Shown piece by piece: positions 1 to 20,601 of a DNA stretch of 64,000 nucleotides (position 1 is the stretch's first letter; every line of letters begins with the position of its first letter). Location of the stretch: contig UBTY01000021.1 of the NCBI GenBank assembly GCA_900468535.1, positions 62,001 to 126,000 of the forward strand, written 5' to 3'. This stretch comes from Hyphomicrobiales bacterium. GTDB lineage: Bacteria; Pseudomonadota; Alphaproteobacteria; Rhizobiales; Rhizobiaceae. The notes beneath the pieces are model-generated. The model was not told where the DNA came from and did not search any database. It saw nothing but the letters and a program-made list of their open reading frames with translations. Both the position numbers and the translations under genes were made by a program.

Positions 1-1293
1 GGCAAAGCCTATCCCCGCCCCGCCGCTGACACCGATAACCTCAGGGCTCGCCATCGGATTGGCAGTGAGCCGCTGCAGGATGGTGCCGGCGATTGCGAGC
101 AATGCCCCGGCGCCGGACGAAGCCAGCAGTCTTGGCCATCGCAGAGGAAAAAGGTCCCATATGTCGGCAGTCGCGAGCCAATCGAAGCCGTTGGGCGTTC
201 GTGCCACGCCCAGCGCGACCACGAGGGCCAGAGGCAGCAGGGCGCAGACCGAGAGCAAGGACCGTGTCGATCGACGGACTGGCGGCGGTTCGGTCACCGG
301 CAGCGGCTCGGTCTGCCTTACGCGATTGACGAGCCACAACAGGAGCGGGCCGCCGAAGATGCCTGTTACCGCCCCGGTCGGAAAAGCCTCGCTCAATGAA
401 GACGCCAGGAGCGCGACGAGACCATCGCAGAACCAGAGGAGGAGCCCGCCGATGAGAGAGGATAAGACGAGGAATGCCGCCGGTCGACGCGCGCCTATAC
501 CTCTGGCAATGGCGGGCCCAGCCAATCCGACAAAGCTTACGAGGCCGACATTGGCGGCAACGCCGGCGGCAAGGGCGACCGCCAACGCGGCTACAAGAAC
601 ACGAACACCGGCAAGCCCGACGCCCAAAGCACGCGCGCCATTATCCCCAAGCGCAAGCACGGAGAGTGGGCGAACCAACAGAAGGGCGCACGGCAGTCCA
701 ATCAGGAGCTGAAGTGCAAGTGAGCCCGCAGCGGACCAATCCTGCTGGCTGAGGGATCCGCCGTTCCAGGTCACGAGCGACATCAGGTACTCCCCTTGCG
801 AAAGCACCAGGGCTGCCGACAGAGCAGCGCACGTAACCCCTATCAGAAGACCGGAGATCACCATCGTCACCGGCTCGAAATTGCGGCGCCAGCCAAGCAG
901 AAACACAAGCAGAGCGGCAGCCGCCCCGCCGGCCAGTGCGACGAGAACCCGGTTGCCGTCGAGTACGGATGGAAACAGTATTGTCGCGGCTACGATGGCG
1001 AGCTGGGCACCAGCCGACACGCCGAGCGTGGCTGGGTCCGCCATCGGATTACGCAGCAGCCGTTGCAGCAAGGCACCGGCAAGGCCAAGTGCGGCGCCGG
1101 CAAGAAGCGCGACCGCAGCACGCGGCAGCACACCGTAAATCAGAATGATCTGACGCGTGGTCATCGCTTCAGGAACGAATGGGAAGGAGGGCCATGTCGC
1201 AATCGGCGACTGCGACAAGACCTGGAGTGAGAAGAGCGCCGCCGCCGACATTGCCCAGATGCTTAGCCCGAGCCAGGCCCTAGCCGGAATCAC
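1..1293 (-). CDS. fhuB: FhuB-like double-length iron-siderophore ABC permease, 3' end cut by window edge
   Basis: Inner-membrane permease of an iron-hydroxamate importer (FecCD family). The reading frame stays open from a GTG at 1293 to base 1, giving 431 residues without a stop. The GTG overlaps the stop of the upstream FhuD-like gene (GTGA) and is preceded by GGAGG. The N-terminal half has several long hydrophobic segments and the typical FecCD sequences LQRLLRNPMADPATLG near residue 80 and NVGLVSFVGLAGP near residue 250. A second copy of the first motif, LQRLTANPMASPEVIG, begins near residue 408, so two FecCD domains are fused, as in FhuB of enterobacteria (about 660 residues). The rest of the second domain, and probably the ATPase gene fhuC, lie outside the window. 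Confidence is high for family and moderate for ferrichrome-type substrate. Confidence 0.9.
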   Translation of the reverse strand, partial: MIPARAWLGLSIWAMSAAALFSLQVLSQSPIATWPSFPFVPEAMTTRQIILIYGVLPRAAVALLAGAALGLAGALLQRLLRNPMADPATLGVSAGAQLAIVAATILFPSVLDGNRVLVALAGGAAAALLVFLLGWRRNFEPVTMVISGLLIGVTCAALSAALVLSQGEYLMSLVTWNGGSLSQQDWSAAGSLALQLLIGLPCALLLVRPLSVLALGDNGARALGVGLAGVRVLVAALAVALAAGVAANVGLVSFVGLAGPAIARGIGARRPAAFLVLSSLIGGLLLWFCDGLVALLASSLSEAFPTGAVTGIFGGPLLLWLVNRVRQTEPLPVTEPPPVRRSTRSLLSVCALLPLALVVALGVARTPNGFDWLATADIWDLFPLRWPRLLASSGAGALLAIAGTILQRLTANPMASPEVIGVSGGAGIGFA

Positions 1294-2192
1294 GGTTCGC
1301 CTCCGTTCAACGTCAACGCATCGCTCAACAATCTGGCAAAGCGAAGCCCGGCAACGATGCCGCCATAGGGATTGACGTTACCGATATTGACGACGCGCCC
1401 GGCGCGCACCTGGTCCAGCGACCGCCAGATCATACTGTCCTTCAGTGTCGTGCGCGCTTCTACCGGGATGTCGGATACGATCACGATCCGCGCCTCGGGA
1501 TTTTCTGCGAGGGTCTCGATCGGCACGGGAGCCGCGAAGGTGAACCTTGACCGATCCGTCCAGGCATTCGGCAACCCCAGACGCTGCAGGATATCGCCGA
1601 ACATGCTGTCGGCTCCGAAAGCGCGGAAGTGGCGCGCGTCGCCGATATTGATGACATAGGTGGGCCGGTCCGCGAACGGCTTCAGTCGAGCCCGAAGATT
1701 GTCGAGGAGCTGAGCTTGTTGAGCCAGCACATTCTCGCCTTCACGTTGCCGGTCGAGAGTCTCGGCAAGCGCCGAAACTGCCGCCAGCGCTTTGCTATAG
1801 GGCGGCTCGCCCCTGACATAGAAGGGCAGAGACAGCACAGGTGCTATGGCCTGAAGCGCGGGTTGGTGGCGCGCGTAGAACGGCGAAATGAGGATGAGGT
1901 CGGGCCTTAAAAGGTGCAGCAGTTCGAAATTCGGTGAGCCTCTGAGGCCGAGATCAACAACCGAGCTCGGTATATCAGGCTCCACTGCATCCTTGCGAAA
2001 TTGAATCAGTTCCGTTGCAGCGATCGGCATCGAGCCCAGAGCAATCATCGTTTCGAGCATCGCCCAATCGATGGCTGCGACGCGCCTGGGGCCATCGGCC
2101 TTTGCACGCATCGGCACCGCGAGAGCCGCCAGCATGCAGAGGATGTCCCTGCGTCTTGCCCCACCACGCGAGCTGTCGAAGCTGTTCGTCAT
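1290..2192 (-). CDS. fhuD: FhuD-like periplasmic iron-siderophore-binding protein
   Basis: Solute-binding protein of the same importer, 300 residues, the usual size for FhuD. The N-terminus carries an RRRD pair followed by a hydrophobic stretch ending AKA at about residue 32, which looks like a twin-arginine type signal as in FhuD proteins. The mature part shows the class III binding-protein pattern: LLRPDLILISPFY near residue 100, and C-terminal segments ending in GLRFARLLSDAL. It starts 19 bases after the TonB receptor gene and overlaps the permease start by four bases, so the three genes form one operon. The ribosome site is weak (GGTGAC about 14 bases upstream). Substrate (hydroxamate siderophore) is inferred from the FhuB-like permease. 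Confidence 0.85.
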   Translation of the reverse strand: MTNSFDSSRGGARRRDILCMLAALAVPMRAKADGPRRVAAIDWAMLETMIALGSMPIAATELIQFRKDAVEPDIPSSVVDLGLRGSPNFELLHLLRPDLILISPFYARHQPALQAIAPVLSLPFYVRGEPPYSKALAAVSALAETLDRQREGENVLAQQAQLLDNLRARLKPFADRPTYVINIGDARHFRAFGADSMFGDILQRLGLPNAWTDRSRFTFAAPVPIETLAENPEARIVIVSDIPVEARTTLKDSMIWRSLDQVRAGRVVNIGNVNPYGGIVAGLRFARLLSDALTLNGGEP

Positions 2193-2211
2193 GTCGATCG
2201 AGATCTGTCAC

Positions 2212-4356
2212 CTACCAGGCGAATGTCAGCCGCGCCATCACCGTACGCCCGTCCCCATAGTTGCAGCCGAAGGACGAGCATGTGGCGACATACTCCTTGT
2301 CGGCGATGTTCTTCAAGTTCAGGGAGGCCCGGATACCATCCTTTTGGTAGTGGATCGACGCATCAAGTAGCGCGACGGCGTCCAGATCCAGCGTGTTCTT
2401 TGTATCGCCATACCGCTGGCCCACATAGCGCACGCCGCCGCCGACGCCGAACCCATCAAGCGCGCTGCCGTCCTGGACGGTATAGTCAAGCCAGAGGCTG
2501 GCGGCATGTTCCGGGAGATTGTCGTGACGATTTCCGTTGTCGGTTTTCCCGCTGATTTCGGCATCCGTATAGGTATAGGCGGCCCGCAGATCGAGGCCAT
2601 CGCTGAGACTGGTCACGGCTTCGAGTTCGAGGCCCTTCACATGGACCTCGCCGATCTGCTCGATGGTGGTGCCGCCGCCGGGCAGTGCTACCGTATTCGA
2701 GACATTCTGCTGCCTGAGATCATAGGCGGCTACAGAGAAAAACCCATCCCATCCTTCGGGTTGATACTTCACGCCAACTTCAAGCTGCTTCCCGGTTGTT
2801 GGCTCGAGGAGCTGTCCGCTTGTCGGCACAGGAACCGGCTCGAAAGAGGTCGCGTAGCTGATATAGGGTGCGATGCCATTGTCGAAGACGTACCCCAGAC
2901 CGGCTCTTCCCGTGAGCTTCTGGTCGTCCTTATCGAGCGGGCGTGACGCGTTTGATATCCCGTTGAACGATGTCCCGCTTGTGCTTGCCCAGTCCTGCCG
3001 GAGCCCCAGTGTCGCCCGCCAGTTCTCATAGGCAAGCTCGTCCTGCACGTAGATACCAACCTGACTCAGATCAGAATCAACGGTCGTATCCGTTGTCCGC
3101 GATATTAGTGAAATTGGCCCTCCGTACGTCGGGTTGAACGCATCGAGCGGCGTCGCTCTCCAGAATTGCGTGCTGACATTGTTCGAGAAATAGCGGTAGT
3201 CGAGACCGATCAGGACCTTGTGGTCCACGTCACCGGTATCGAATTCCGCAAGAAGATTGTTGTCGACATTGAACGTGTTCAGCAACTCATCCTGGAACGT
3301 CGCATTGCGATTGATCGTGCGCCCGTCTGCCGCCAGGCCCAGGGTCGACATGCCGAGCGCCCGGTAGTTCCAGTCGAAGTTGGAATAGCGCAGGTTCTGG
3401 CGGAAGCTCCATACATCGTTGAAGCGATGTTCCAGTTCGTAACCGAGATTAGTAAGTGTGCGGCTGGACCTGTCGAAGCTAGGGTCACCGACATAGAAGT
3501 CGCGCGGCAGTTTGTAGCCCGTCGCGTTCAGTGTCAGCTGCGACGGCAAACCGGATGGCGAACTGGGATTGTCGTGCTGAACGCTGGTCAGGATCGTGAG
3601 TTTGGTGTCCTCGTCAGGCTGCCAGGTTACCGCAGGCGCGACAAAGTAGCGGTCATTGTCAAGTTCGTCGGTCTGCGCGCCTGCCGCGCGAACCAGACCC
3701 GTGATACGATAAGCAAAGTCAGAGCCGTCGGAGACCGGCCCGCCGACATCGAAGAACGTGCCATAGGTGTCGTAGCTCCCGGCTTGCAGACCGACTTCGC
3801 CGAAACGCTCGAAGACGGGTCGCTTGCTGATGAGATTGATCATTCCGCCCGGATTACCCTGGCCGTACATGATCGACGCCGGCCCCCTCAGCACTTCGAT
3901 CCGCTCCAGAAGATAAGGATCGACGGCGGGCGCGCCTGCGGTACGCATCATGCGCAACCCATTCAAAAACTGCGCCTGCCGGCTATCGAAGCCTCTGATC
4001 TTCGGCGCATCAAAGCGTGGATCCGAGCCACCGGGCTCGCCAATAACGCCCGGGGTATAGTCAAGCGCCTGACCGACTGTCTCGGCGTCCTGGGCCTGAA
4101 TCTGGTCGCGCGTGATAACCGAGATAGACTGCTGCGTTTCGAGAATCGGGGTGCCAGTTTTGGTGGCGGTCGAACTGGACCGTGCGACATAGCCCTTGAC
4201 CGGTCCCGTTGGGTCCTCGTCCACCGCACCCTTAACGGTGATCGGCGCGAGCGCCGTTGCCTGCTCTGCATCCTGCGCGAATGCCAGGTTGGGTGCCAGA
4301 GCCCATCCACCGAGGAGAGCAGCGGTTGTCAGCGCATTTTGAAGAGTTCTGTTCAT
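2212..4356 (-). CDS. TonB-dependent siderophore receptor (FhuA/FoxA type)
   Basis: Outer-membrane receptor, 714 residues from the ATG at 4356; an in-frame TTG six bases upstream is less likely. A signal peptide ends at AFA-QDAE (about residue 28). The plug domain follows, with LETQQSISVITRDQIQ, GQALDYTPGV and the hallmark LRGPASIMYGQGNPGG-MINLISKRP near residue 150. The remainder is a 22-strand-type barrel with alternating hydrophobic residues, ending in Phe-Ala-Trp (VMARLTFAW) as outer-membrane barrels do. A cysteine pair CSSFGC near the C-terminus is typical of the ferrichrome/ferrioxamine receptor group. It is the first gene of the operon with the FhuD- and FhuB-like proteins. A divergent LysR gene and palindromic DNA lie upstream; I find no RirA-type TGA-N9-TCA site there, unlike the second iron locus. 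Confidence 0.93.
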   Translation of the reverse strand: MNRTLQNALTTAALLGGWALAPNLAFAQDAEQATALAPITVKGAVDEDPTGPVKGYVARSSSTATKTGTPILETQQSISVITRDQIQAQDAETVGQALDYTPGVIGEPGGSDPRFDAPKIRGFDSRQAQFLNGLRMMRTAGAPAVDPYLLERIEVLRGPASIMYGQGNPGGMINLISKRPVFERFGEVGLQAGSYDTYGTFFDVGGPVSDGSDFAYRITGLVRAAGAQTDELDNDRYFVAPAVTWQPDEDTKLTILTSVQHDNPSSPSGLPSQLTLNATGYKLPRDFYVGDPSFDRSSRTLTNLGYELEHRFNDVWSFRQNLRYSNFDWNYRALGMSTLGLAADGRTINRNATFQDELLNTFNVDNNLLAEFDTGDVDHKVLIGLDYRYFSNNVSTQFWRATPLDAFNPTYGGPISLISRTTDTTVDSDLSQVGIYVQDELAYENWRATLGLRQDWASTSGTSFNGISNASRPLDKDDQKLTGRAGLGYVFDNGIAPYISYATSFEPVPVPTSGQLLEPTTGKQLEVGVKYQPEGWDGFFSVAAYDLRQQNVSNTVALPGGGTTIEQIGEVHVKGLELEAVTSLSDGLDLRAAYTYTDAEISGKTDNGNRHDNLPEHAASLWLDYTVQDGSALDGFGVGGGVRYVGQRYGDTKNTLDLDAVALLDASIHYQKDGIRASLNLKNIADKEYVATCSSFGCNYGDGRTVMARLTFAW

Positions 4357-4423
4357 CGCCAAAGGAGAAGTCGCCCAGAAAATTAAAACTGGACTCTTTT
4401 ATTCATCTTATCGAAATTGTTCC

Positions 4424-5495: not shown

Positions 5496-7583
5496 TCATC
5501 CCCTGTCGCCAAGCGGTGCGGATGGTGCCACGACGATACGAAATCCGTTGCCACGCCAGAAACCATCCGGCTCGAGGCTGCCGCGATACGTGCAACAGGC
5601 TTTCGTCTTGTTGCTCGAAAAGCAGCCGCCACGCAGGACGCGACGAACCGCTGGCCCCGCATCGTCTGCCTCACGCCCATCGTCGTCATAGGGGTATCGG
5701 AAACTTGGCGTCGCCATGTCCTCGCCCCACAGGGTCGTACACCATTCCCACACCTGTCCGGTCATGTCGTGACAGCCAAAGGCAGAGCGCCCCTTGGGAA
5801 ACATGCCGACGGTACAGGTATTGTTGAGCCCTGCTTCTTCGGAATTGGCGGCATCCGCGATCCACTCGTGCCCCCAGGGATAGATGATGGTTTCAACGCC
5901 AAGGTCGGCCTGATCGCCACGGGCAGCCCGCTCCCACTCCGGCTCGGTTGGGAGCCGAACAATGTCTTCCGGGCCGATTTTTCCCTGCGCGCGCCAGCGA
6001 TCGGTCAGCCAGTCGCAATAGGCTCGCGCATCGCGCCACGTCAGATCGGTCGCCGGGGCGTTTCGGCGGCCCTCGGCGAAACCATCAGGGCTGCGCCAGA
6101 GCCGAGCGGTATCGCGCACGAAGGCGGCGTAGGCAGCGTTGGTAACGGGATAGAGGCCGATGCGGAACGCATCGACGTCGACGGCATGCGGCGGCGCGGA
6201 GTTCGGGTGCGTATCGGAACCAAGCACACACACGCCTGCCGGCACTTGCGCCAAGACCTCAAGGTCGCGCGGATCACCCCAGGCCGACAGGATTCGGCCG
6301 GCGCTTTCACGCTCGGGGATCGACAGCGCGCCATGGTCGACAATGTCCAAAAGATGGGCGGCGATACGATCCCTTGATGGTCCGGCCTGCGCTCCCATGC
6401 CAGCCGCGAGCAACGCGCCACGGCGCGTGTCGTCACCATCGCCCGCAATGAGCGCTCGGATGAGTTCGTCTGCGGCTGCCGAACCATTCAGGCGCCTGGC
6501 AAGACCTTGCAGCACCGGTGTCCAAAGCGGCGGTCGCGAGCGGAACGCCTGAACGGCAGTCGCAGCCGGCAACGTGGACAAGTGGCGCGCCGCCAGCAAT
6601 TGACGAACGCGCGTCACCGGGAATAGCCCGTCTTCATCGAGCGTGCCCGAGAGCGCATCGAAGGCGAGCCCGCAAAGGAAGTTGGCTGTTTGCGCGTCGC
6701 CGGCGAGCTTGGCCAGCCAGCGATCCGCAATCGCCTCCGCAGTCTGGCCCTCATCATGGCTATGAAGGGCCATCACGAATTGCGCCGGATTTCCGGCCGC
6801 CATACCAAGAGCCACGGCCTCCTGTTCCAGATCAAGGCCCGCGAGCCTTCGACCGGCTTCAAGCCGTTGCGCCCGGGACAGCGGCAGCAGATCATGGCGC
6901 GCAAAGGCGGGAGGCAATGCCCAGCTCTTCACTGCGGACTGTTCCCCAAGGGCAAGCAGCCGAATGCGCGGAAAACCCGACTGAAAGGCGAGTGCCTGGT
7001 CAAGCAGAACAGGCCCCTCGTCACCGGCGGCCTCGATCCCATCGAGTATCACAAGGAGGGTTGTATCTGATGCCGCCCATACGTCGCCAGACAGCAAGGC
7101 ATCGAGACCGGGCAACGCTTCATCGAGCAAATCCCGGACACCCATTCCCGGCTTGACCGCCAAGTAGAGCGGAAGAACGTGGTCGAGGTCCCAATACTCA
7201 TCGTGCGCGGCGCCGAGTTCGTTGCGCACCACCCGCGGCGGTGCCAGACGATCGCCGGCAAGCGTCAATGCCAAGTGCTGCGCAAAGCTCGTTTTGCCAC
7301 CGCCGGTTTCCGCGGTCAGAACAAGGGACGCATGATCACGCACCATCTCCAGCGCGGAGAAATACACCGCGGGTTCCGGCTCCGACTGGTCCTTGAGCTT
7401 TCGCAGACCTTTGGCCGCCTTGTCCTCGAAACTGAAATTGACGAGCAGCGGAATGTATCCCGTCCGCAAGTCCGCCACGGATCCATCGGGCAAGGTTAGC
7501 AGCGGGCGCTGTCCATACGCACGCGCTCTGGAGAAGAGCGTTTCGCGAAGGCTGGCGGGTGTGTACGTCCCTACTGAGTTCAT
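5496..7583 (-). CDS. P-loop NTPase (NACHT-like) fused to a C-terminal FGE-sulfatase/SUMF1 domain
   Basis: 695 residues, no signal peptide, hence probably cytosolic. A Walker A motif, TAETGGGKTS, lies at about residues 90-99 and a Walker B-like LLVILDGIE at about 176-184, suggesting a STAND/NACHT-type NTPase. A helical middle region (about 230-440) has no motif I recognise. From about residue 450 the sequence is an FGE-sulfatase fold: VPAGVCVLGSD, GLYPVTNAAYAAFV, RLPTEPEWERAARG, GQVWEW and RRVLRGGCFSS to the end. True formylglycine-generating enzymes have two cysteines after RGGS; here the first aligned position is Ser and the cysteines are CC a little further on, so that activity is doubtful. 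It is the last gene of the peptide-importer operon; its ATG overlaps the stop of the VOC gene by one base (TGATG). Function unknown. Confidence 0.8.
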   Translation of the reverse strand: MNSVGTYTPASLRETLFSRARAYGQRPLLTLPDGSVADLRTGYIPLLVNFSFEDKAAKGLRKLKDQSEPEPAVYFSALEMVRDHASLVLTAETGGGKTSFAQHLALTLAGDRLAPPRVVRNELGAAHDEYWDLDHVLPLYLAVKPGMGVRDLLDEALPGLDALLSGDVWAASDTTLLVILDGIEAAGDEGPVLLDQALAFQSGFPRIRLLALGEQSAVKSWALPPAFARHDLLPLSRAQRLEAGRRLAGLDLEQEAVALGMAAGNPAQFVMALHSHDEGQTAEAIADRWLAKLAGDAQTANFLCGLAFDALSGTLDEDGLFPVTRVRQLLAARHLSTLPAATAVQAFRSRPPLWTPVLQGLARRLNGSAAADELIRALIAGDGDDTRRGALLAAGMGAQAGPSRDRIAAHLLDIVDHGALSIPERESAGRILSAWGDPRDLEVLAQVPAGVCVLGSDTHPNSAPPHAVDVDAFRIGLYPVTNAAYAAFVRDTARLWRSPDGFAEGRRNAPATDLTWRDARAYCDWLTDRWRAQGKIGPEDIVRLPTEPEWERAARGDQADLGVETIIYPWGHEWIADAANSEEAGLNNTCTVGMFPKGRSAFGCHDMTGQVWEWCTTLWGEDMATPSFRYPYDDDGREADDAGPAVRRVLRGGCFSSNKTKACCTYRGSLEPDGFWRGNGFRIVVAPSAPLGDRG

Positions 7584-7963
7584 CAGAATAGCTTTGCTAC
7601 ATCGGGATTGTGAAAGCGCTGGATTTCGATGGCGTAACCCGCCGGGTCCTCGAAGAAGAAGTGCTCGCAGTAAGTGCCACGCAATATTTCCGACAGGCCG
7701 GTCACGCCGGCATCGGACATGCGCTTATGCCAACCTTCCACATCCTGCGCGACGATCGTCAACAGGACCGCACTCTTTTGCTGATGCTTGAGGTGCCCGC
7801 GGTTGCCGTCGACGATACCAAAATAGCACTTTCCAGCTATGCGATAGATGCGCGCGAGCCCCTGATCCAATACCAGCTCGAGACCCAACACCTTCTCGTA
7901 GAAGGGTGCGACGGCGTGGATATCTTCATAGTAGAAGAAGGTGATCGAGTAGTCCTTTTCCAT
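7583..7963 (-). CDS. VOC-family (glyoxalase/dioxygenase fold) protein
   Basis: Small vicinal-oxygen-chelate protein, 126 residues from the ATG at 7963, which has AGGA seven bases upstream. An alternative ATG at 7978, overlapping the previous stop as TAATG, would add five residues. Visible VOC features are FYYEDIHAVAPFYEKVLGL at the N-terminus and FFFEDPAGYAIEIQRF near the C-terminus, the Glu of which is a usual metal ligand. Relatives include glyoxalase I-like lyases, extradiol dioxygenases and thiol-transfer resistance proteins. Here it lies between a binding-protein-like gene and the NTPase/FGE fusion, so it is probably an enzyme or ligand-binding protein for the imported compound. The exact reaction cannot be read from the sequence. 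Confidence 0.82.
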   Translation of the reverse strand: MEKDYSITFFYYEDIHAVAPFYEKVLGLELVLDQGLARIYRIAGKCYFGIVDGNRGHLKHQQKSAVLLTIVAQDVEGWHKRMSDAGVTGLSEILRGTYCEHFFFEDPAGYAIEIQRFHNPDVAKLF

Positions 7964-7977
7964 TTTCGCGTCCTGCA

Positions 7978-9363
7978 TTAGTCGATGTTCAGAGTGCCCT
8001 TGTGGTCGATCGTAAGACCGGCGATACCCTTGCGCATGGCAAAGACGTCGATTGGGTGGACCAAGTAGAGCCATGGCGGGTTCTGGTGAAGACGGGTGAG
8101 GCAGCGCGCATAGGCGAGATCCCTGGCACCGTCGTCGACGGCATGGTTTGCAGCCGAAATCAGCTCCTCGGTTTCAGGATCCTCGTAACCCTGCCACCAG
8201 ACCGCCTGTGTCGCGCTTGATATCTTGTCGTTCAGGATGCGGAATGTGCTGTGTGGCGAGGAGTCGAATATCGCCATGTCTCCCATTTCCTTGCGGCCGA
8301 TCTGCCGGGCGTATTCTGGTCGGTCGCGTTCGGTTTCGATCTCGACCTTGAGGCCGACCGCTTCAAGCGCAGCGCCCACGAAACGGCTGACTTCCGGCGC
8401 CCTCTCTGGCATGAACGTCGGTGTGCGCAAGGTCAAGGTAGCACCGGCATCGACGCCATCGAGCAGCCGCCGAGCCTTTTCCGGATCATAGGCGATTGGC
8501 CGCAGGTCGGCGCGCTTCGCACCAAGATGGAATGGGCTGACGATTGTAGAGGACGGGACCGCCAGCCCATGGAAGATCTCGTCGGCGATCAGAGCCGTAT
8601 CGACCGCATGATTGACCGCCAGCCGCGCTTCCGGTGAACGGAACATGCCCTGTTGGCAATTCAGGTAGTACATGACCGACAAGGTGTTGACGGCCTTTCC
8701 CCAGGCAAGGTTCTCATCGAAATCGAAACGCTTCTCGATGCGTTCCAGGTTGAGTGCTGCGTCGACGTCGCCGTGTATCAGGGAGTCGTAGCGCGCTTCA
8801 GCGTGTCGGTCGGCCAACGCGACGATCCGCTGCGGGCCGCTGCCCGAGCCGGCTTTCGCCAGCACCGCGCGCCTGCCCGCCTCGAACTCCTCGACGCGAT
8901 AGCGGCCGGTGCCGAGGACGGGCAAGCCGGCCTCATCCAACCGGCAGATGTAAAACTCCGAGAAAATGTCGAGAATGTCGGCGATCGGCTCGGGGTTCTC
9001 GACCCGAACCACACCGCCGCTCTCAGCGGTAATCCGGGCGTCGGCGAGATAACGCGCATAGGACCACTTCATCCCGAAGGTATCGACCGCCTGCAGGATA
9101 CCATCGATAAAGCCGATGATATCCTCGGCGGTGCACGGCTTCCCGTCATGGAACATCGCGCCATCTCGAATGAAGAATCGCCAGATACGACCGTCATCGG
9201 AATGAGACCAACGCGAGAACAGCGCCGGACGGACAAACCCGTCATCCCATTTCAGGAGCGGTTCGAAAACGAGGTTCTTCAGGGTCAGAACACTGGTGTC
9301 GTCGGTGACACGCGTGGGCGGAAGAAAGTCGACTTTCTCGAGGCTGATCGTCAGTGTGTCCAA
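7978..9363 (-). CDS. Peptide-binding-protein-like (SBP family 5) polypeptide without a signal peptide
   Basis: 461 residues resembling the mature part of DppA/OppA proteins: LVFEPLLKWDDGFVRPAL, WSHSDDGRIWRFFIRDG and FHDGKPCTAEDI near residues 33-85, and a C-terminal KGIAGL segment. It starts at a TTG (9363) with GAGG five bases upstream. An in-frame TAG at 9376-9378 rules out an upstream extension, so no export signal can exist. The protein is therefore expected in the cytosol, unlike the conventional binding protein encoded at 11348-12910 in the same operon. It starts eight bases after the permease stop. It may be a cytosolic ligand sensor or carrier, or an enzyme-like derivative of the fold; SgrR-type regulators also use this domain, but no DNA-binding domain is present. 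Confidence 0.82.
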   Translation of the reverse strand: MDTLTISLEKVDFLPPTRVTDDTSVLTLKNLVFEPLLKWDDGFVRPALFSRWSHSDDGRIWRFFIRDGAMFHDGKPCTAEDIIGFIDGILQAVDTFGMKWSYARYLADARITAESGGVVRVENPEPIADILDIFSEFYICRLDEAGLPVLGTGRYRVEEFEAGRRAVLAKAGSGSGPQRIVALADRHAEARYDSLIHGDVDAALNLERIEKRFDFDENLAWGKAVNTLSVMYYLNCQQGMFRSPEARLAVNHAVDTALIADEIFHGLAVPSSTIVSPFHLGAKRADLRPIAYDPEKARRLLDGVDAGATLTLRTPTFMPERAPEVSRFVGAALEAVGLKVEIETERDRPEYARQIGRKEMGDMAIFDSSPHSTFRILNDKISSATQAVWWQGYEDPETEELISAANHAVDDGARDLAYARCLTRLHQNPPWLYLVHPIDVFAMRKGIAGLTIDHKGTLNID

Positions 9364-9370
9364 GATGACC

Positions 9371-10219
9371 TCAATCTAGTTCGCTGCGGCGACGCGGGTT
9401 GAACCAGTCCGCCAGGGAGTCGCCCACCAGGTTGAAGGACAGGACGGCGAAAAGGATCGCCATGCCGGGCGCCAGTGCTACCCAGGGAGCGCTGCGCACA
9501 TATTGAAGGTTCGCCGACACATCCGCGCCCCACTCGGCCATCGGCGGCTGGGCACCAAGACCCAGGAAGCCGAGGCTGGCGGTCTGCAGGATGGCACTGC
9601 CCAGAGCCAATGTCGATTGAACCAGAAGCGGCCCAAGGCCATTGACGAAGATGTAGCGAAAGAGGATGCGGCTGTTCGGCAGCCCAAGCGAGACGGCGGC
9701 TTCGACATAAGGCTTGACCGAAACGCTGAGCGCCTGGCTGCGCGCGACACGCGCAAACTGAGGAGCAAGCGTAATCGCAACGGCAAGCATAGCATTTTGC
9801 AGGCTTGGACCGAAAGCGGCCGCCAATGCGATGGCGAGCACCAGTGCAGGAAAAGCCAAAATCGCGTCGACGACGCGCATGATGACGCTGTCCGTCCAGC
9901 CCCCCGCGAAACCGGCGATGGTGCCGAAGAACACACCGACGAGAAATGCGATGGCGACGACGCCCACGCCGATCGTCAGTGTGGCTCGCCCGCCATACAT
10001 GATGCGCGTCAACACATCGCGGCCGAAGGCGTCCGTGCCCAGCCAATGACTGACGCTTGGAGCGGCAAGCTTATGGAGAACATCGAGCTTGGTCGGCGAA
10101 TACACGGTGATCATCGGCCCGATTGTGATGAGCACGATCAGCGCGACGAGAATGCCAAGCCCGACAACTGCGAGTGTATTGCGTCTGAGAAACGTTATGA
10201 ATTCGCGCATGACGTTCAC
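9371..10219 (-). CDS. Dipeptide/oligopeptide-type ABC permease, DppC/OppC family
   Basis: 282 residues with an N-terminal membrane segment (VVGLGILVALIVLITIGPM), the DppC-type sequence HWLGTDAFGRDVLTRIMYGG, and the BPD-transport signature around EAAVSLGLPNSRILFRYIF. The C-terminal LAPGMAILFAVLSFNLVGD matches the usual end of this family. It starts with GTG at 10219, overlapping the stop of the DppB-like gene (GTGA); an ATG nine bases later is an alternative. Second membrane subunit of the importer; partner of the DppB-like protein, the secreted binding protein at 11348-12910 and the double ATPase at 14166-15959. The operon continues into the signal-less binding-protein-like gene. Confidence 0.93.
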   Translation of the reverse strand: MNVMREFITFLRRNTLAVVGLGILVALIVLITIGPMITVYSPTKLDVLHKLAAPSVSHWLGTDAFGRDVLTRIMYGGRATLTIGVGVVAIAFLVGVFFGTIAGFAGGWTDSVIMRVVDAILAFPALVLAIALAAAFGPSLQNAMLAVAITLAPQFARVARSQALSVSVKPYVEAAVSLGLPNSRILFRYIFVNGLGPLLVQSTLALGSAILQTASLGFLGLGAQPPMAEWGADVSANLQYVRSAPWVALAPGMAILFAVLSFNLVGDSLADWFNPRRRSELD

Positions 10220-11226
10220 TTCATCTTCTTGCGGACGCGCGGATCGAGAACGCCATAGAGCACGTCCACGATGATCGAGGTGATGACGAAAAGCAGCGCG
10301 AAGACCAGTGTCGTGCCCTGGATAACCGGATAGTCGCGGTTCTTGATCGCCTCGAACATGTAGCGACCGATCCCGGGCCAGGCGAAGATTGTTTCCGTCA
10401 GGATGGCGCCGCCGAGCATCTCGGCGAACTTAAGCCCGATCACCGTGATCGCCGGCAGGAGCGAATTGCGCAGGCCGTGATTGAGCACGACATCAGCGCG
10501 CCGCAGACCTTTTGCCCTGGCGGTACGAATAAAATCCTCACCCATGACATCGAGCATCGTGTTGCGCACGAAGCGTCCGAGCGTGGCGGAGAGGAAGGCG
10601 GCTAACACGGCGGTCGGGAGGATGAGATGCTGCACTGCGCTCCAGGTCGCGACGAGATCGCCTGAGAGCAGGCCATCCAGAATGGCGAAGCCCGTTATGT
10701 GTTCCGCCGTGATGAAGGAGCTCATCCGCCCGGAGACCGGCAGCCAGCCGAGATAGGTCCCGAAGACAAGCTGGAGGATCAGCGCAAGCAGGAAGGCGGG
10801 CATCGAGACCCCGACCAGGGAAACAACGCGCGTGATATGATCGAACAGCGAATTGGGCCTGATGGCGGAAAGAACGCCGATCGGAATGCCGAAAATCACG
10901 GCCACAATGACGGCGAACACGGACAGCTCGATCGTCGCCGGCAGTCGCAGGACGATCTCCTGGGCAACGGGCAGGCCAGTCTTCAGCGACAATCCAAAAT
11001 CGCCCTGCAGGAGCCCGCCGACATAGTGGAGGAACTGAAATACGACAGGCTGATCGAGATCAAGCTGAGCGCGCAGCGCATCGATCTGCGCTTGCGTCGC
11101 GCCGGGACCGAGCAGCGTGACAGCCGGATCGCCCGGGATCAGCCGAACCAGGGAAAAAACGATGACCAGAACGATGCACATGACGGGTATCAGCGCGATC
11201 AGTCGTCGTATGATGAAACTCGCCAT
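10216..11226 (-). CDS. Dipeptide/oligopeptide-type ABC permease, DppB/OppB family
   Basis: 336 residues. The N-terminus MASFIIRRLIALIPVMCIVL and LVRLIPGDPAVTLLGPGA are typical of DppB/GsiC proteins, followed by five more membrane segments. The permease loop reads DFIRTARAKGLRRADVVLNH with HGLRNSLLPAITVIG and the C-terminal GAILTETIFAWPGIGRYMFEAI. First membrane subunit of the peptide-type importer. The gene follows the secreted binding protein after 121 bases that contain a strong hairpin, and overlaps the DppC-like gene by four bases. Substrate specificity cannot be read; in this operon the cargo may be a small amide or glutathione-like compound rather than a peptide. Confidence 0.93.
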   Translation of the reverse strand: MASFIIRRLIALIPVMCIVLVIVFSLVRLIPGDPAVTLLGPGATQAQIDALRAQLDLDQPVVFQFLHYVGGLLQGDFGLSLKTGLPVAQEIVLRLPATIELSVFAVIVAVIFGIPIGVLSAIRPNSLFDHITRVVSLVGVSMPAFLLALILQLVFGTYLGWLPVSGRMSSFITAEHITGFAILDGLLSGDLVATWSAVQHLILPTAVLAAFLSATLGRFVRNTMLDVMGEDFIRTARAKGLRRADVVLNHGLRNSLLPAITVIGLKFAEMLGGAILTETIFAWPGIGRYMFEAIKNRDYPVIQGTTLVFALLFVITSIIVDVLYGVLDPRVRKKMK

Positions 11227-11347: not shown

Positions 11348-12910
11348 TCACTTCTTGTAGACGGACCAGTACTCGTTGAGCGGCGGTGCGCTGTTGACGA
11401 CGAGTCCTTCGACATTGGCGCGCGTGAAGACGATCAGCTTCGGGCTGAAAAGATAGGCGCCCGGCACACGCTTGGCGATTTCTTCCTGAACCTCGAAATA
11501 GAGCTTCTTGCGGGCTTCCATATCCGACGTCTGCTGCGCCTTGACGATCAGATCATCGAGGTCCTTGTCTCCGGGCATGCGGAAGGTCATGGCTGTGTCG
11601 GCTAGAGACGACAGGTAGCCGATGGTGATGTGCGCATCCGGATCATTGTACCAGGGCTGGCGGCCATCGAGCGCGACATCGAACTGGCCTGATGTCTGCA
11701 ACGCGCGCAACGCGGGGAATTCGGTCTGCTCGATCGTGGCGTTGATGCCGATGTCGGCTAGGTTCGCCTGAACGAAGGTGGCAACAGCACCCCAGAGCGG
11801 CCCCTGGAAGCTATAGAGCTTCAGGTTGATGCTGGACGGATCGACACCGGCTTCCGCCAGAAGCTTCTTGGCCAGTTCCGGATCATAGGCCGGTGCAAGT
11901 TCCTTCATCTTCGGGTTGAACGCCCAGCTGTTGCTGGTCAGAGGACCATACACGCGCTCGGCAGTGCCGCCGAAGACGCCCTGCAAAAGGCCGTCATAGT
12001 CGATCGCATGTGCGATCGCTTCGCGTGCCTTGACGTTGGCGAAAGGCCCGTCCTTCTTATTGTTGTTGAACTCGAGCTGGCGGATGATCTGGCTCGATGT
12101 TTCGAGCACCTTCACATCCTTGTTGTCCTTCAACGCTTCGATATCCTCGGCAGCGATCGCCGACAGCTGACCCTGCTGCTGAACGATATCCACGCCGCCG
12201 CTTTCAAGCTCGAGCCGGCGCGTCGAGGCGTCTGGAATGACGCGGTAGATGATCTTGGAAAGCTTGGGCGCGCCGCGGAAGTAGTCCGGGTTGGCCTCGA
12301 GAACGACGTTCGTATCGGCCTGCGCGCTCTTGAAGACAAACGGACCGGTGCCGACGGGATTGGCGGCGAACTTGTCACCATATTTCTCCACCGCCGTCGG
12401 GCTGACGATCGCCGATTGCGGCTGCGCCAGAATTGACAGGAATGCCGGATAGGCCGCCGTGAGGGTGATTTTTACCTCGCTCGGCGACACTACGGAGATA
12501 TCCTTGATAAGGTCGAAGGTCGCCTTGACGTAGGAATTTGATGCCTTGGTGCGTTCGAGCGAGAACTTCACGGCAGCCGCATCGAAAGGCGTGCCGTCCT
12601 GGAATTTCACGCCATCACGGAGCTTGAAGTCGAACTCCTTGCCATCCGCGGAAACAGTCCAGCCCGTAGCAAGGCGCCCCTCAAGATCCTTGAAGTCAGG
12701 CGCCGTCCACGCAACCAGCGTGTCGAAGACGTTCAGAATGATCTCGCTGCCGACGGGCTCGGCCTTGTTGGTGCCGGGCTCGAGGCTGACGGGATCCGAG
12801 GGAACGGCAACGACCAGCGTCTTCAACTGTTCCGCACTCTGCGCCATCCCGTGACCCGCAACGAGCGGCAAGGCCACCATCGCTGCGAAAAATCCCTTCC
12901 AGACTTTCAT
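11348..12910 (-). CDS. Periplasmic substrate-binding protein of a peptide-type importer (SBP family 5)
   Basis: 520 residues from the ATG at 12910, chosen because AGGGG lies about eight bases upstream and the signal peptide starts there (MKVWKGFFAAMVALPLVAGH, cleavage after GMA-QSA). An upstream in-frame start at 12970 would place 20 charged residues before the signal. Family 5 features are LVVAVPSDPVSLEPGTNKAE, the DFKLRDGVKFQDGTPFDAAA block near residue 90, and AREAIAHAIDYD near residue 300. First gene of the operon that encodes both permeases, a signal-less paralogue, a VOC protein and the NTPase/FGE fusion. A candidate GntR operator lies 77 bases upstream of the start. Confidence 0.92.
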   Translation of the reverse strand: MKVWKGFFAAMVALPLVAGHGMAQSAEQLKTLVVAVPSDPVSLEPGTNKAEPVGSEIILNVFDTLVAWTAPDFKDLEGRLATGWTVSADGKEFDFKLRDGVKFQDGTPFDAAAVKFSLERTKASNSYVKATFDLIKDISVVSPSEVKITLTAAYPAFLSILAQPQSAIVSPTAVEKYGDKFAANPVGTGPFVFKSAQADTNVVLEANPDYFRGAPKLSKIIYRVIPDASTRRLELESGGVDIVQQQGQLSAIAAEDIEALKDNKDVKVLETSSQIIRQLEFNNNKKDGPFANVKAREAIAHAIDYDGLLQGVFGGTAERVYGPLTSNSWAFNPKMKELAPAYDPELAKKLLAEAGVDPSSINLKLYSFQGPLWGAVATFVQANLADIGINATIEQTEFPALRALQTSGQFDVALDGRQPWYNDPDAHITIGYLSSLADTAMTFRMPGDKDLDDLIVKAQQTSDMEARKKLYFEVQEEIAKRVPGAYLFSPKLIVFTRANVEGLVVNSAPPLNEYWSVYKK

Positions 12911-12986
12911 TCTACGCCCCTTTCGTAGTCGCGGCTTTCGTTCAAAAGCCGGCTTCATCAATACCGGCACTTCTTAGCCAATCCGT

Positions 12987-13160: not shown

Positions 13161-14018
13161 TCAAAGCGGATCCGCGCCCGTTATCACCGGACGTGTCGGA
13201 TCGCTGATCCAGGCAGACCAGGAACCGGGGTACATGGCTGCCTCGACGCCGATCGAGGCAAGCGCCAGAACGGTATGCGCGGCCGACATGCCGGCCCCGC
13301 AATAGACACCGACCGGGCACGATCCATCCGCGCCGAGCGCACGATACATTTCCGCCAGCGTGGCTGCATCTGTGAAATTGCCATAGTCGGTGAGGTTATC
13401 AGGCGCCGGCGCGCTGATTGCATAAGGAATATGCCCTCGTGCCGGCTGCCCTGGCGCCACCGCGCCGCCGATGTAATTGGGCCTGATGCGCGCATCGAGC
13501 AACACCGCTTCCTTGCCGAGGCGCAAGGCAGCATTCGCGTCAAGCTCGGGCATATGGCCGACGGACAGTGTGATTTCGCTTGGCTGTGGCGTCGCCACCT
13601 TGTCCGTCACAGGAAGTCCGGCAGACCGCCACGCCGGCATGGCACCGTCAAGCACCCGAACATCTGGCAGGCCTGCCCATCGCAGCACCCACCACGCTCT
13701 CGCTGCCGTCATGCTGCGATCGCCGTCATAAACGACGACAGTGCTCTCCTTGCGCAGCCCCCAGCGGCGAGCCTTCTCCTGCAGAACAAGAATATCGGGC
13801 AAGGGTCGCTGCCCACCCTCGAAGGAGGCAGGCGCCTGAAAGTCAGTATAGGCTTCCGTGTCGATTGCCCCATCGATACGCGACCCGTTAAAGGACGGGG
13901 CACCGGTATAGGGATTGATCGAATGAACAGCGAGCAAGGTGATATCCGCACCGGATCTGCGGAGCTCATCCAATTCGACGGGTGTCAGAAGAACTTTTTT
14001 TCGGACGTCGTCGATCAT
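13161..14018 (-). CDS. Two-domain rhodanese/3-mercaptopyruvate sulfurtransferase
   Basis: 285 residues from the ATG at 14018, the usual length of tandem rhodanese sulfurtransferases; a TTG at 14069 would add 17 residues. The first, inactive domain shows FNGSRIDGAIDTEAYTDF and VVVYDGDRSMTAARAWWVLR. The second domain carries ARGHIPYAI and the active-site loop YCGAGMSAAH, with the catalytic Cys in a CGAGMSA context, closer to the CGSGVTA of mercaptopyruvate sulfurtransferase than to the CRKGVTA of thiosulfate enzymes. It would move a sulfane sulfur from a thiol compound to an acceptor, matching the PatB-type C-S lyase downstream. It is divergent from the double ATPase, with GntR operator copy B between them. 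Its 3' side faces the importer operon with no clear terminator. Confidence 0.88.
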   Translation of the reverse strand: MIDDVRKKVLLTPVELDELRRSGADITLLAVHSINPYTGAPSFNGSRIDGAIDTEAYTDFQAPASFEGGQRPLPDILVLQEKARRWGLRKESTVVVYDGDRSMTAARAWWVLRWAGLPDVRVLDGAMPAWRSAGLPVTDKVATPQPSEITLSVGHMPELDANAALRLGKEAVLLDARIRPNYIGGAVAPGQPARGHIPYAISAPAPDNLTDYGNFTDAATLAEMYRALGADGSCPVGVYCGAGMSAAHTVLALASIGVEAAMYPGSWSAWISDPTRPVITGADPL

Positions 14019-14087
14019 GGCGCCAACTTCTTTACAAGCTGAGGAATTTGACCATCCTCCTTCATCCAATGCAGCTTGGCAAGCTGA

Positions 14088-14107: not shown

Positions 14108-14165
14108 ACGACCTTTCGTATCCTGTATGAAAGGCGACAGCCCTACCGCCACAGGAGCGTCCTGC

Positions 14166-15959
14166 GTGACCATCTTATCCGTTGAGCATCTGACAACGTC
14201 CTTTCGTCGAGGCGGAGAATGGACGCCCGTCGTCAACGATGTCAGCCTGACGGTGGCAGCCGGCGAGACGGTGGCGATCGTTGGCGAGTCCGGCTCCGGA
14301 AAGAGCGTGACGGCAATGTCGATCATGCGCCTGCTTCCGGAAAAGACCTCTCGGATCGAGGGTAGCGTCAAGCTCGGCGGCAGGGAACTTTTGACTGTAC
14401 CCGAGCGCGAGATGCAGGACATCCGGGGCAACGAGGTCGCGATGATCTTTCAGGAGCCGATGACCTCCCTCAATCCGGTCCTCACTGTAGGTCGTCAGAT
14501 CGCGGAGGCAATCCGGCGCCATCGCGGGGTTAGCGCTAGTGAGGCCCGCGCGCAGACAATCGCCTTGCTGGACCGCGTGCGCATTCCGGCGGCCACAAAA
14601 CGTTTCGATGAATATCCGCACGAGCTTTCCGGCGGCACGCTGCAACGTGTGATGATCGCCATGGCGCTGGCCTGCAGACCGAAGCTTCTGATCGCAGACG
14701 AGCCGACCACCGCGCTTGACGTGACCGTTCAGGCCGAAATCCTTGGACTCATCAAGAGCCTCCAGGATGAAGAGCAAATGGGCGTGCTCTTCATCACCCA
14801 TGACATGGGCGTTGTCGCCGAGATCGCCGACCGGACTGTGGTGATGTTCCGCTCGCGCGCGCTGGAAAGCGGTCCCACAGATGCGATCTTTGCCGACCCC
14901 GAGAACGCCTATACGAAGGCCCTGCTCTCAGCCGTGCCGAAACTCGGCTCGATGACTGGCCGCTCGAATCCCGCGACCTTTCCGCTGGTCGACGTCCAAA
15001 GCGGCCTTGCGCTTGGAGAGCGCGAAGTCGCTCGGGCCGGCGAGCGCAACGTTCTTGAGGTCAGCAACCTCGTCGCACGGTTCGACATCAAGAGCGGCGT
15101 ACTCGGTCGCGTAACCGGTCGCGTGCACGCGGTTGAGGACGTCTCGTTCGACCTGAAGGAGGGCGAAACCCTTTCGCTGGTCGGAGAATCCGGTTGCGGC
15201 AAGTCAACGACCGGCCGCGCGGTGCTCCGGCTCATCGAACCCGTCAGCGGCAACATCCGCATCAATGGCGAGGACATCGGCGCGATGACGTCGGGCATGC
15301 TGACGCGCCAGCGCCGCCAGATGCAGATGATCTTTCAGGACCCCTATTCCAGCCTCAACCCGCGTATGCGCGTGGGCGACGCCATTGCCGAGCCATTGAT
15401 CGCTCATGGATTGGCCTCGCGGACGGAAGCCCAGGCAAAGGCCGTCGATCTCCTCGAACGGGTTGGCCTCAAGCCCGATATGGCGCGACGCTTTCCGCAC
15501 GAATTTTCCGGTGGCCAGCGCCAGCGCATCAGCATCGCGCGCGCATTGACGCTGAACCCGAACCTGATTGTCGCTGACGAGGCGGTCTCCGCGCTTGACG
15601 TCTCGATCAAGGCGCAGGTGGTGAACCTGATGCTGGAGCTTCAGGAAAACCTGAAGATCGCCTATCTTTTCATCAGCCACGACATGGCAGTCGTCGAGCG
15701 CGTGAGCCACCGCGTCGCGGTCATGTATCTCGGCGAGATTGTCGAAATTGGTTCGCGCGAGCAGATTTTTGCCAGCCCGCAGCATGCCTATACCAAGCGG
15801 CTACTGGATGCCGTGCCGATTGCCGACCCAAGCCGCCGCCACGTCCGCGCGCGCCAACCCGGCGTCGAACTCGGAAGCGCCGTCAGGCCGGCGGACTACC
15901 TCCCCCCGAAGGCAAGCTATCGCGAAGCGGCACCCGGCCACCTCGTCAAGCAAGGCTAG
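14166..15959 (+). CDS. Fused double ATP-binding subunit of a peptide-type ABC importer (DppD-DppF / GsiA-like)
   Basis: 597 residues from a GTG at 14166 that has GGAG eight bases upstream and gives the usual N-terminus (VTILSVEHL); an ATG at 14127 lacks a ribosome site. Two complete ATPase domains are visible: Walker A GESGSGKS near residue 42, signature ELSGGTLQR, Walker B LLIADEPTTALD; then Walker A GESGCGKST near residue 340, FQDPYSSLNPRMRV, signature EFSGGQRQR and LIVADEAVSALD. Each domain ends with the oligopeptide extension (AYTKALLSAVP, AYTKRLLDAVP). This is the only ATPase gene near the DppBC-like permeases, so it should energise that importer although it lies on the other strand, beyond the sulfurtransferase. 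GntR operator copy B lies 58 bases before the start. Confidence 0.92.
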   Translation: MTILSVEHLTTSFRRGGEWTPVVNDVSLTVAAGETVAIVGESGSGKSVTAMSIMRLLPEKTSRIEGSVKLGGRELLTVPEREMQDIRGNEVAMIFQEPMTSLNPVLTVGRQIAEAIRRHRGVSASEARAQTIALLDRVRIPAATKRFDEYPHELSGGTLQRVMIAMALACRPKLLIADEPTTALDVTVQAEILGLIKSLQDEEQMGVLFITHDMGVVAEIADRTVVMFRSRALESGPTDAIFADPENAYTKALLSAVPKLGSMTGRSNPATFPLVDVQSGLALGEREVARAGERNVLEVSNLVARFDIKSGVLGRVTGRVHAVEDVSFDLKEGETLSLVGESGCGKSTTGRAVLRLIEPVSGNIRINGEDIGAMTSGMLTRQRRQMQMIFQDPYSSLNPRMRVGDAIAEPLIAHGLASRTEAQAKAVDLLERVGLKPDMARRFPHEFSGGQRQRISIARALTLNPNLIVADEAVSALDVSIKAQVVNLMLELQENLKIAYLFISHDMAVVERVSHRVAVMYLGEIVEIGSREQIFASPQHAYTKRLLDAVPIADPSRRHVRARQPGVELGSAVRPADYLPPKASYREAAPGHLVKQG

Positions 15960-15973
15960 TGCAGAGCGCCTGA

Positions 15974-16675
15974 TCAGAGAGTAAAGCTGCCGTGGGCGTT
16001 TGAAATCAGCGCGTTGAGCAATCCCTGGAGCGTATTTTCGTTGTGCTCGACCATCGCGGCGCGTGCCTTGTCACTGTCGCGCTCGCGCAGCACACCAACG
16101 ATCCGATGATGGTCGTTGGCCGTCTCCGGATTAATGTCGCGAACTCTCGTCCCCATGTAGAATAGGCGCGCGCACTCCTCGAGATGGCTCATCACCAGCG
16201 AGTGCAGGCGTGGGTTACGCGAACCGCGCGCGATCGCCGAATGGAACTCCTCGTTGGAGTCGACGAAGGTTTTCGTGCTGACATTTTCGCCCACGACGTA
16301 GCTAGCGTTGGCCAGCTGATCGAGCGCATCCAGTTCGGCATCAGTGAGGTTCTTCGCGGCAAGTGCTGCAGCAGTTCCCTCGAGCACGCCGCGAACAGCG
16401 AAAAGGTCGTTCATGTCCTTGACCGTAACCGGCGTCACGCGATAGCCGCGCCGCGGGAAGGCTTCCATGAACCCTTCGACGCACAGACGTGCCAATGCTT
16501 CGCGCACCGGCGTCTTGCTCATTTCCAGCTTTTCGGCGAGCTCGGGTTCGGAAACCGCCATGCCCGGCGCCAACTGCCCGACGATGATCCGCTCGCGCAA
16601 TATCATGTAGGCTTGCTCCGTCAGCGATTTCGCCCGTCTTTCCGACGTCGGCCCCGACCTGTCAGTCCTGTTCAA
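15974..16675 (-). CDS. GntR-family regulator, FadR/FCD subfamily
   Basis: 233 residues. The winged helix at residues 15-80 includes AYMILRERIIVGQLAPG, ELAEKLEMSKTPVREALARL and GFMEAFPRRGYRVTPV, the GntR signature. The C-terminal all-helical FCD domain (about 95-225) has the metal- and ligand-binding pattern DSNEEFHSAIARGSRNPRL and NDHHRIVGVL, where Asp and His residues usually hold a metal ion. The gene converges on the double ATPase with only 14 bases between stops, and diverges from the racemase operon. Three copies of one palindrome in the divergent or upstream regions make it the likely repressor of the whole 5.5-21.7 kb block. Confidence 0.92.
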   Translation of the reverse strand: MNRTDRSGPTSERRAKSLTEQAYMILRERIIVGQLAPGMAVSEPELAEKLEMSKTPVREALARLCVEGFMEAFPRRGYRVTPVTVKDMNDLFAVRGVLEGTAAALAAKNLTDAELDALDQLANASYVVGENVSTKTFVDSNEEFHSAIARGSRNPRLHSLVMSHLEECARLFYMGTRVRDINPETANDHHRIVGVLRERDSDKARAAMVEHNENTLQGLLNALISNAHGSFTL

Positions 16676-20596: not shown

Positions 20597-20601
20597 CACG
20601 C

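Follow-up and report, generated by a model that had tools for sequence, protein, structure and literature searches.

A NACHT-FGE fusion protein with an NLR-like fold and invariant cysteines holds a fixed place in a bacterial uptake and catabolic locus

The window, a stretch of 64,000 nucleotides from a soil bacterium of the Hyphomicrobiales, encodes a 695-residue protein that combines a NACHT/HD1/WHD/HD2-like part (residues ~2-435) with a C-terminal domain of the FGE/SUMF1 fold (residues 446-684), and whose gene keeps a constant set of neighbors in distant relatives. The most far-reaching interpretation, to which we give well under an even chance, is that a protein of NLR architecture has been taken into metabolism, where its FGE fold, with three invariant cysteines, would bind or convert one particular sulfur metabolite from a dedicated transporter, with a solute-binding protein that lacks a signal peptide and a VOC protein as its cytoplasmic partners. 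If true, the protein would be either an NLR that is gated by a metabolite or an FGE-fold enzyme that is gated by ATP and carries out new chemistry. The fusion of a NACHT-like NTPase to an FGE domain at positions 5496-7583 had been noted in the original prediction, and this observation is confirmed and goes beyond chance, although the strand had been omitted. The open reading frame runs from an ATG start at 7583 to 5496 on the minus strand, whereas the same frame on the plus strand is interrupted by stops; the assignment of its parts is based on the open reading frame call, Pfam and AlphaFold2 (AF2) models.

The neighboring genes on the minus strand encode a VOC protein of the glyoxalase/dioxygenase superfamily (7583-7963, 126 residues from the conserved start), a family-5 solute-binding protein with no room for a signal peptide (7978-9363), an OppC-type permease (9371-10219), an OppB-type permease (10216-11226), a family-5 solute-binding protein with an N terminus that by eye resembles a signal peptide (11348-12970) and a rhodanese or 3-mercaptopyruvate-sulfurtransferase-like protein (13161-14069), which scores 94 bits and thus falls under the MST equivalog cut-off of 250. 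A fused Opp-type ABC ATPase with two ABC_tran stretches follows on the plus strand (14127-15959; best NCBIfam match GsiA, 778 bits, under the cut-off of 1077), and then a GntR/FCD-family regulator on the minus strand (15974-16675). The remaining genes are on the plus strand and encode a member of the Asp/Glu/hydantoin racemase family (16873-17535), a cyclic amidohydrolase (17532-18896), a DapA/DHDPS-family protein (18912-19838), an SDR oxidoreductase (19838-20596) and a PatB-family C-S lyase (20593-21741; TIGR04350, 416 bits, above the cut-off of 340). The best NCBIfam match of the amidohydrolase is the hydantoin-5-propionate amidohydrolase ErtD of ergothioneine utilisation, at ~500 bits against a cut-off of 600. 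The earlier description of the surroundings as a transport operon is too narrow, since they form a larger uptake and catabolic locus that includes C-S lyase, sulfurtransferase-like and hydantoin-type genes. The rhodanese/MST-like protein, PatB, the ErtD-nearest amidohydrolase, the hydantoin-type racemase, the DapA-like protein and the SDR oxidoreductase together suggest that a compound containing sulfur, and perhaps resembling hydantoin, is taken up and broken down. An ErtD/ergothioneine locus was considered and rejected, since the amidohydrolase is below the cut-off and no ergothionase is present among the locus genes scanned.

The gene order rhodanese/MST, solute-binding protein, OppB, OppC, signal-less solute-binding protein, VOC and NACHT-FGE, all on the same strand, was recovered in 20 of the 20 other loci examined. 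Random placement of the homologs, which the original prediction had named as a refutation, is therefore not what is seen, and all 20 loci keep the family-5 binding-protein genes. These loci consist of 14 genome-contig loci (50-88% identity in the best segment, Rhizobium sp. Root708 being the 88% relative), one locus from a further genome of the same genus (G022), three that a profile search of 397 genomes of the order brought up and two on plasmid records with annotation, and range from the Rhizobiaceae to a Rhodobacterales plasmid from outside the order of the window, with identities down to ~40%. They are phylogenetically non-independent: apart from one Microvirga, the genome-contig records all bear the name Rhizobium, Neorhizobium, Agrobacterium or Rhizobiales bacterium (13 of 14). 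L004 and L006, whose contigs have the same lengths as those of L025 and L035, were not counted separately from these, and L005 was left out of one comparison, its context being read from the same genome as L188. Inspection of two of the plasmid hits H1-H6, H2 and H5, showed unannotated stretches, which were not counted. The LysR gene that comes next in the window has no ortholog at the corresponding position in any of L023-L036, the genome-contig loci (L036 shows only 1.2 kb there), the sole LysR match being 25% identical and 4 kb off, in L024. A FhuD-like siderophore-binding protein and a TonB-dependent receptor adjoin the locus in the window (1290-4362), and matches to these among L023-L036 were found only in L035 (32% and 37%), 2-7 kb past NACHT-FGE.

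The divergent arm of the locus is looser than the NACHT-FGE arm, though usually adjacent to it. A full-length ABC ATPase is adjacent in 14 of the 20 loci (8 of the 14 genome-contig loci, G022, all three profile-found loci and both plasmids). Beside the other six, only remnants were found in L024 (2260-2361) and L026 (1846-2367), and none in L029, L031, L032 and L034, so that transport there needs an ATPase from elsewhere. All six nevertheless keep the rest of the transport arm. In L031, the ATPase site between GntR and rhodanese holds an AAA_21/AbiLi-like ATPase and an RloB/AbiLii-like gene, a possible defence pair (480-2272). The racemase and the amidohydrolase are adjacent in 18 of the 20 loci, the exceptions being L024 and L026, for which the best copy is on another contig, and the PatB C-S lyase is adjacent in 16, but not in L024, L026, L034 and Terrarubrum; in L082 it is located directly downstream of NACHT-FGE. 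The two Neorhizobium loci L024 and L026 thus retain NACHT-FGE without the arm of racemase, amidohydrolase and PatB. Two Neorhizobium genomes carry a racemase-amidohydrolase-DapA set (54-65%) on another contig (L075:8305-11268 and L076:1792-4743), followed by what by eye appear to be amino-acid transporter genes. On the Alloyangia plasmid (L184:226-1488), the amidohydrolase match is split into three pieces, of which the first and second coincide with annotated hypothetical-protein genes, and this amidohydrolase may therefore be broken.

The proposed translational coupling of the NACHT-FGE gene to the VOC gene agrees with the one-base overlap of the VOC stop with the NACHT-FGE start in the window, and with an overlap in 8 of 14 orthologs, the other six having 12-14 bases from stop to start. 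The VOC start is probably at 7963 rather than 8074, and the VOC proteins of the orthologs are 72-98% identical. Upstream of the second solute-binding protein, the frame is open for four codons in the window and in L033, and for seven codons before residue 4 in L031 and L032, which leaves no room for a signal peptide in these four. Elsewhere the frame is open further upstream, yet in each of the 18 sequences the homologous region starts within residues 1-6, which suggests that the protein is signal-less in the remaining loci as well. The gene overlap and the constant adjacency of three cytoplasmic proteins are points in favor of a structural scaffold, in which NACHT-FGE would hold the VOC and signal-less binding proteins in a complex without itself sensing or catalyzing anything. 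We consider such a role quite unlikely, as it leaves unexplained both the retained Walker residues and the loop RGSLEPxGxWRGNGFR, which is identical in pattern across all 18 aligned sequences.

We also examined how NACHT-FGE and its partners are distributed, with profile searches of the order and phylum that scored two candidates per genome. Among the 397 genomes of the order, five match NACHT-FGE at E 1e-30, of which the fifth (G443, L086:280-3138) is a different protein, a NACHT-FGE of 952 residues with a weak trypsin-like N-terminal match. A VOC ortholog of at least 72% identity is present in exactly 4 of the 397 genomes, and these are the same four that carry NACHT-FGE; the next VOC match has 44% identity. 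Within the genus, presence is patchy, with a full-length copy in 4 of 37 genomes, the genome of the window included. The search of 398 genomes of the phylum gave two further matches (G730 and G610) that carry just the FGE Pfam domain, and no other locus genes were found within 16-20 kb of them. A related operon in G426 (L175:8026-16188) encodes VOC, a solute-binding protein, OppB, OppC, two ATPases, a second solute-binding protein and GntR, without any NACHT-FGE match in 17 kb, which indicates that a related system can do without this protein. The frame of its second solute-binding protein is open upstream, with homology starting near the N terminus. Judging from this one case, VOC together with a double-binding-protein transporter may be a wider unit to which NACHT-FGE is an addition.

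The predicted positions of Walker A near residue 90 and Walker B near residue 180 were borne out by the motifs AETGGGKT at 91-98 and LLVILD at 176-181. The Walker residues [AG]xxxxGK[ST], Asp181 and Asp/Glu184 are retained in 18 of 18 aligned sequences, the window among them, and the motifs are also readable in L180 and L181. By Pfam, the window protein reaches 14.0 bits for NACHT against a cut-off of 26.7 and a likewise sub-threshold 19.8 bits for nSTAND3, while the Terrarubrum ortholog is above the NACHT threshold with 30.9 bits; for L082 and L181 no NACHT match was obtained at E 0.001. In the first AF2 model, in which residues ~70-410 mostly have pLDDT >70, residues 2-426 superimpose on NLRC4 with a Z of 19.4 over 346 residues at 5.0 A, and give Z values of up to 18.7 for NOD2 and up to 18.0 for NLRP3, the top non-NLR structure being MuB with a Z of 12.4. 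According to this model, the N-terminal part is a NACHT-type module with the NLR fold. The module is a putative ATPase. No Pfam match was obtained ahead of residue 74, and the protein thus has no recognizable effector; nor was a recognizable output domain found in it.

A complete FGE fold had been predicted from about residue 450, in agreement with the Pfam FGE-sulfatase match at 446-684 (E 1.8e-40), encoded at 5532-6248 on the minus strand. Residues 556-679 of the first AF2 model have pLDDT <50 and were left unread, and a model of the domain folded alone (pLDDT 89.7) was used instead. This model supports the fold and matches ToxD, FGE, EgtB, OvsA, PvdO and PorK, with a Z of ~26 for human FGE. 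The original prediction also held that the cysteines of genuine formylglycine-generating enzymes are not in their expected positions, and named an alignment restoring the pair as a further refutation. In the profile alignment to the FGE of T. curvata (6s07), the GGS-x-x-C motif corresponds to GGC-F-S-S in the window protein, with the motif serine aligned to Cys654 and the first catalytic cysteine to Ser657, while the second catalytic cysteine falls inside a three-residue deletion of the window protein. The pair is thus not restored. Position 657 is serine in 17 of the 18 aligned sequences and glycine in L082. A true formylglycine-generating enzyme was therefore rejected, as the fold is present but the copper-binding catalytic pair is missing.

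Four other cysteines, Cys523, Cys590, Cys604 and Cys654, occur without exception in the 18 aligned sequences and are readable in L180 and L181 as well. Cys663 and Cys664 were considered as a replacement pair and rejected, since one or both are altered in six loci (L029, L031, L032, L082, L084 and L085) and the pair is thus not essential. We compared the domain with 48 FGE domains from viral contigs, in an alignment of 45 rows out of 80 loci (48 of which were chosen by eye for coverage; L102, L106 and L114 were excluded because of an internal stop) plus L087, L088 and L090. None of these domains has a cysteine at the position of Cys604 and only two have one at that of Cys654, while at the position of Cys590 cysteine is not among the six commonest residues.

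The known members of the FGE fold act on thiols with oxygen, a chemistry that fits both a ligand-operated switch and an enzyme. The top NCBIfam matches of the NACHT-FGE protein, SenA (67.7 of 420 bits) and EgtB (66.4 of 360 bits), are enzymes that form C-Se and C-S bonds, and both are far under the cut-off. EgtB and SenA have a second, DinB-like domain with iron ligands. A sulfoxide or selenoxide synthase of the EgtB/SenA type was rejected on these scores, and because no second iron-ligand domain was found by Pfam up to E 1 and the N-terminal part is instead NACHT-like.

Within the NACHT-FGE protein, constraint is strongest at the FGE end. Identities of the window protein to L082, L084 and L085 are 59, 63 and 63% in the FGE domain, as compared to 33, 31 and 25% in residues 40-300. 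Nei-Gojobori dN/dS ratios for the five finite pairs are 0.050-0.083 for the FGE domain and 0.125-0.224 for residues 40-435, with the FGE value lower in each pair; a further pair yielded no finite ratio for the FGE domain, and L031 and L032 are separated by very few changes. L032 is near-identical to L031 and was omitted from some comparisons, but kept in the 18-sequence alignment. Such a constant end is as expected for one fixed small ligand or for a substrate, and the possibility raised in the original prediction, of ligand binding or of catalysis of some other reaction that depends on oxygen, is compatible with such strong purifying selection.

The main rival interpretation is that the FGE-fold domain is a pathway enzyme that acts on the imported sulfur compound in a reaction dependent on oxygen and metal, with a site other than the FGE cysteine pair, for example around Cys654, Cys604 and Cys590, and with the NACHT part regulating or assembling the enzyme. 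It deserves serious weight, although we regard it as somewhat less likely than not. From the window to L085, the FGE domain (63%) is as constant as the locus enzymes and transporter (VOC 75%, SBP1 67%, rhodanese 59% and amidohydrolase 57%, of which only part was seen), and the weak NACHT conservation in distant orthologs would likewise be compatible with a NACHT part that does no more than tether a conserved enzyme. The C-S lyase and sulfurtransferase-like genes of the same locus, the distant resemblance to SenA and EgtB and the three invariant cysteines that are uncommon or absent at the same positions in the viral-contig domains point in the same direction. However, the copper pair of FGE is missing, no DinB-type iron domain was found, no catalytic residue set was identified in the FGE domain, and a full NLR-like module is not obviously needed by such an enzyme.

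The constraint on the FGE end also bears on a third interpretation, that of an anti-phage or DGR-type conflict sensor which adjoins a transport operon by chance. Passages in PMC10907252 describe NACHT/nSTAND1 proteins with FGE-type CLec domains as putative conflict proteins, parts of PMC7159879 place FGS domains in ternary conflict systems, and the NACHT-FGE of L086, from another family within the same order, has the architecture of a conflict protein in its weak trypsin-like N-terminal match. In the present protein, the FGE end is constrained rather than diversified, no effector domain is present, PADLOC gave 0 families up to E 0.1 and the placement is fixed in all loci examined. Among the genes scanned, no reverse transcriptase or template repeat was seen. 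A conflict function was rejected on the PADLOC result, the missing effector and the constrained sensor, and we regard it as very improbable.

The explanation that we favor, at only slightly less than an even chance, is that NACHT-FGE is a cytoplasmic, effector-less, NLR-like STAND ATPase that acts as a ligand-gated switch of the pathway, with an FGE domain that recognizes one fixed small ligand. The ligand would most likely be a sulfur-containing compound handled by the locus, which would be imported by the Opp-type transporter and broken down by the amidohydrolase, the racemase, the PatB C-S lyase and the sulfurtransferase-like protein. Once the FGE domain binds this ligand, the NACHT module would change its nucleotide state, and the VOC protein and the signal-less solute-binding protein, as putative operon partners in the cytoplasm, would relay the output. 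In favor of this explanation are the modeled NACHT and FGE folds, the retained Walker residues, the fixed gene order, the co-occurrence with VOC and the constant FGE end. Points against it are the poor conservation of the NACHT part in distant orthologs, the lack of a recognizable output domain, the NACHT scores under the Pfam cut-off, the loci with no adjacent full-length ATPase or without the racemase, amidohydrolase and PatB arm, and the G426 operon, which has no NACHT-FGE match. In the NACHT-FGE family the sensor is constant, the set of partners fixed and the metabolic neighborhood defined, which opens a direct route to the ligand of an NLR-like protein. The unusual constancy of the sensing end, in a protein built like an animal or bacterial immune receptor, suggests that this receptor design also serves to handle one particular small molecule, and not defence. 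The FGE fold already makes formylglycine, ergothioneine and selenoneine, and the domain would be a new member for the fold if it is catalytic.

Several known systems share parts of this architecture. The metazoan NLRs NLRC4, NOD2 and NLRP3 are related through the NACHT arrangement that residues 2-426 of the model share with NLRC4, but the locus protein has an FGE domain instead of LRRs, and no CARD or PYD. The WHD histidine usual in NLRs was not seen by eye in the aligned sequences, at what we take to be its position in the alignment. With the formylglycine-generating enzyme (SUMF1), the locus domain has the fold and core motifs in common, but not the catalytic cysteines. EgtB, SenA and OvsA have an FGE-like C-terminal domain, as does the locus protein, which is however without their second (iron) domain; the GC and GGC motifs are common to OvsA and the locus domain. 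ToxD of Burkholderia glumae (7spq) is the best PDB match both by sequence and by Foldseek, and PorK has the highest VIA-align Z (27.4, tied with others), but the matches to ToxD, PvdO and PorK cover the FGE domain only. These three proteins belong to biosynthetic or secretion contexts, not uptake. By title, nothing on the locus was found in the literature on ergothioneine or thiohydantoin catabolism or on the gene combination, and the protein is a known STAND-FGE architecture in a metabolic setting for which the literature searches gave no report. In the DGR-linked STAND/FGE proteins covered in parts of PMC10907252 and PMC7159879, the lectin-fold domain is the diversified part, and a passage of PMC10907252 states that STAND-linked lectin-fold domains are so far without experimental characterization. 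The putative conflict proteins of the NACHT/nSTAND-FGE (CLec) type that are described in passages of PMC10907252, DGR targets among them, and to which FGS proteins in PMC7159879 are related, likewise have an N-terminal STAND NTPase and a C-terminal FGE-type domain. The locus protein differs from them in having neither an effector domain nor hypervariability, and in its constant position within a locus for uptake and catabolism.
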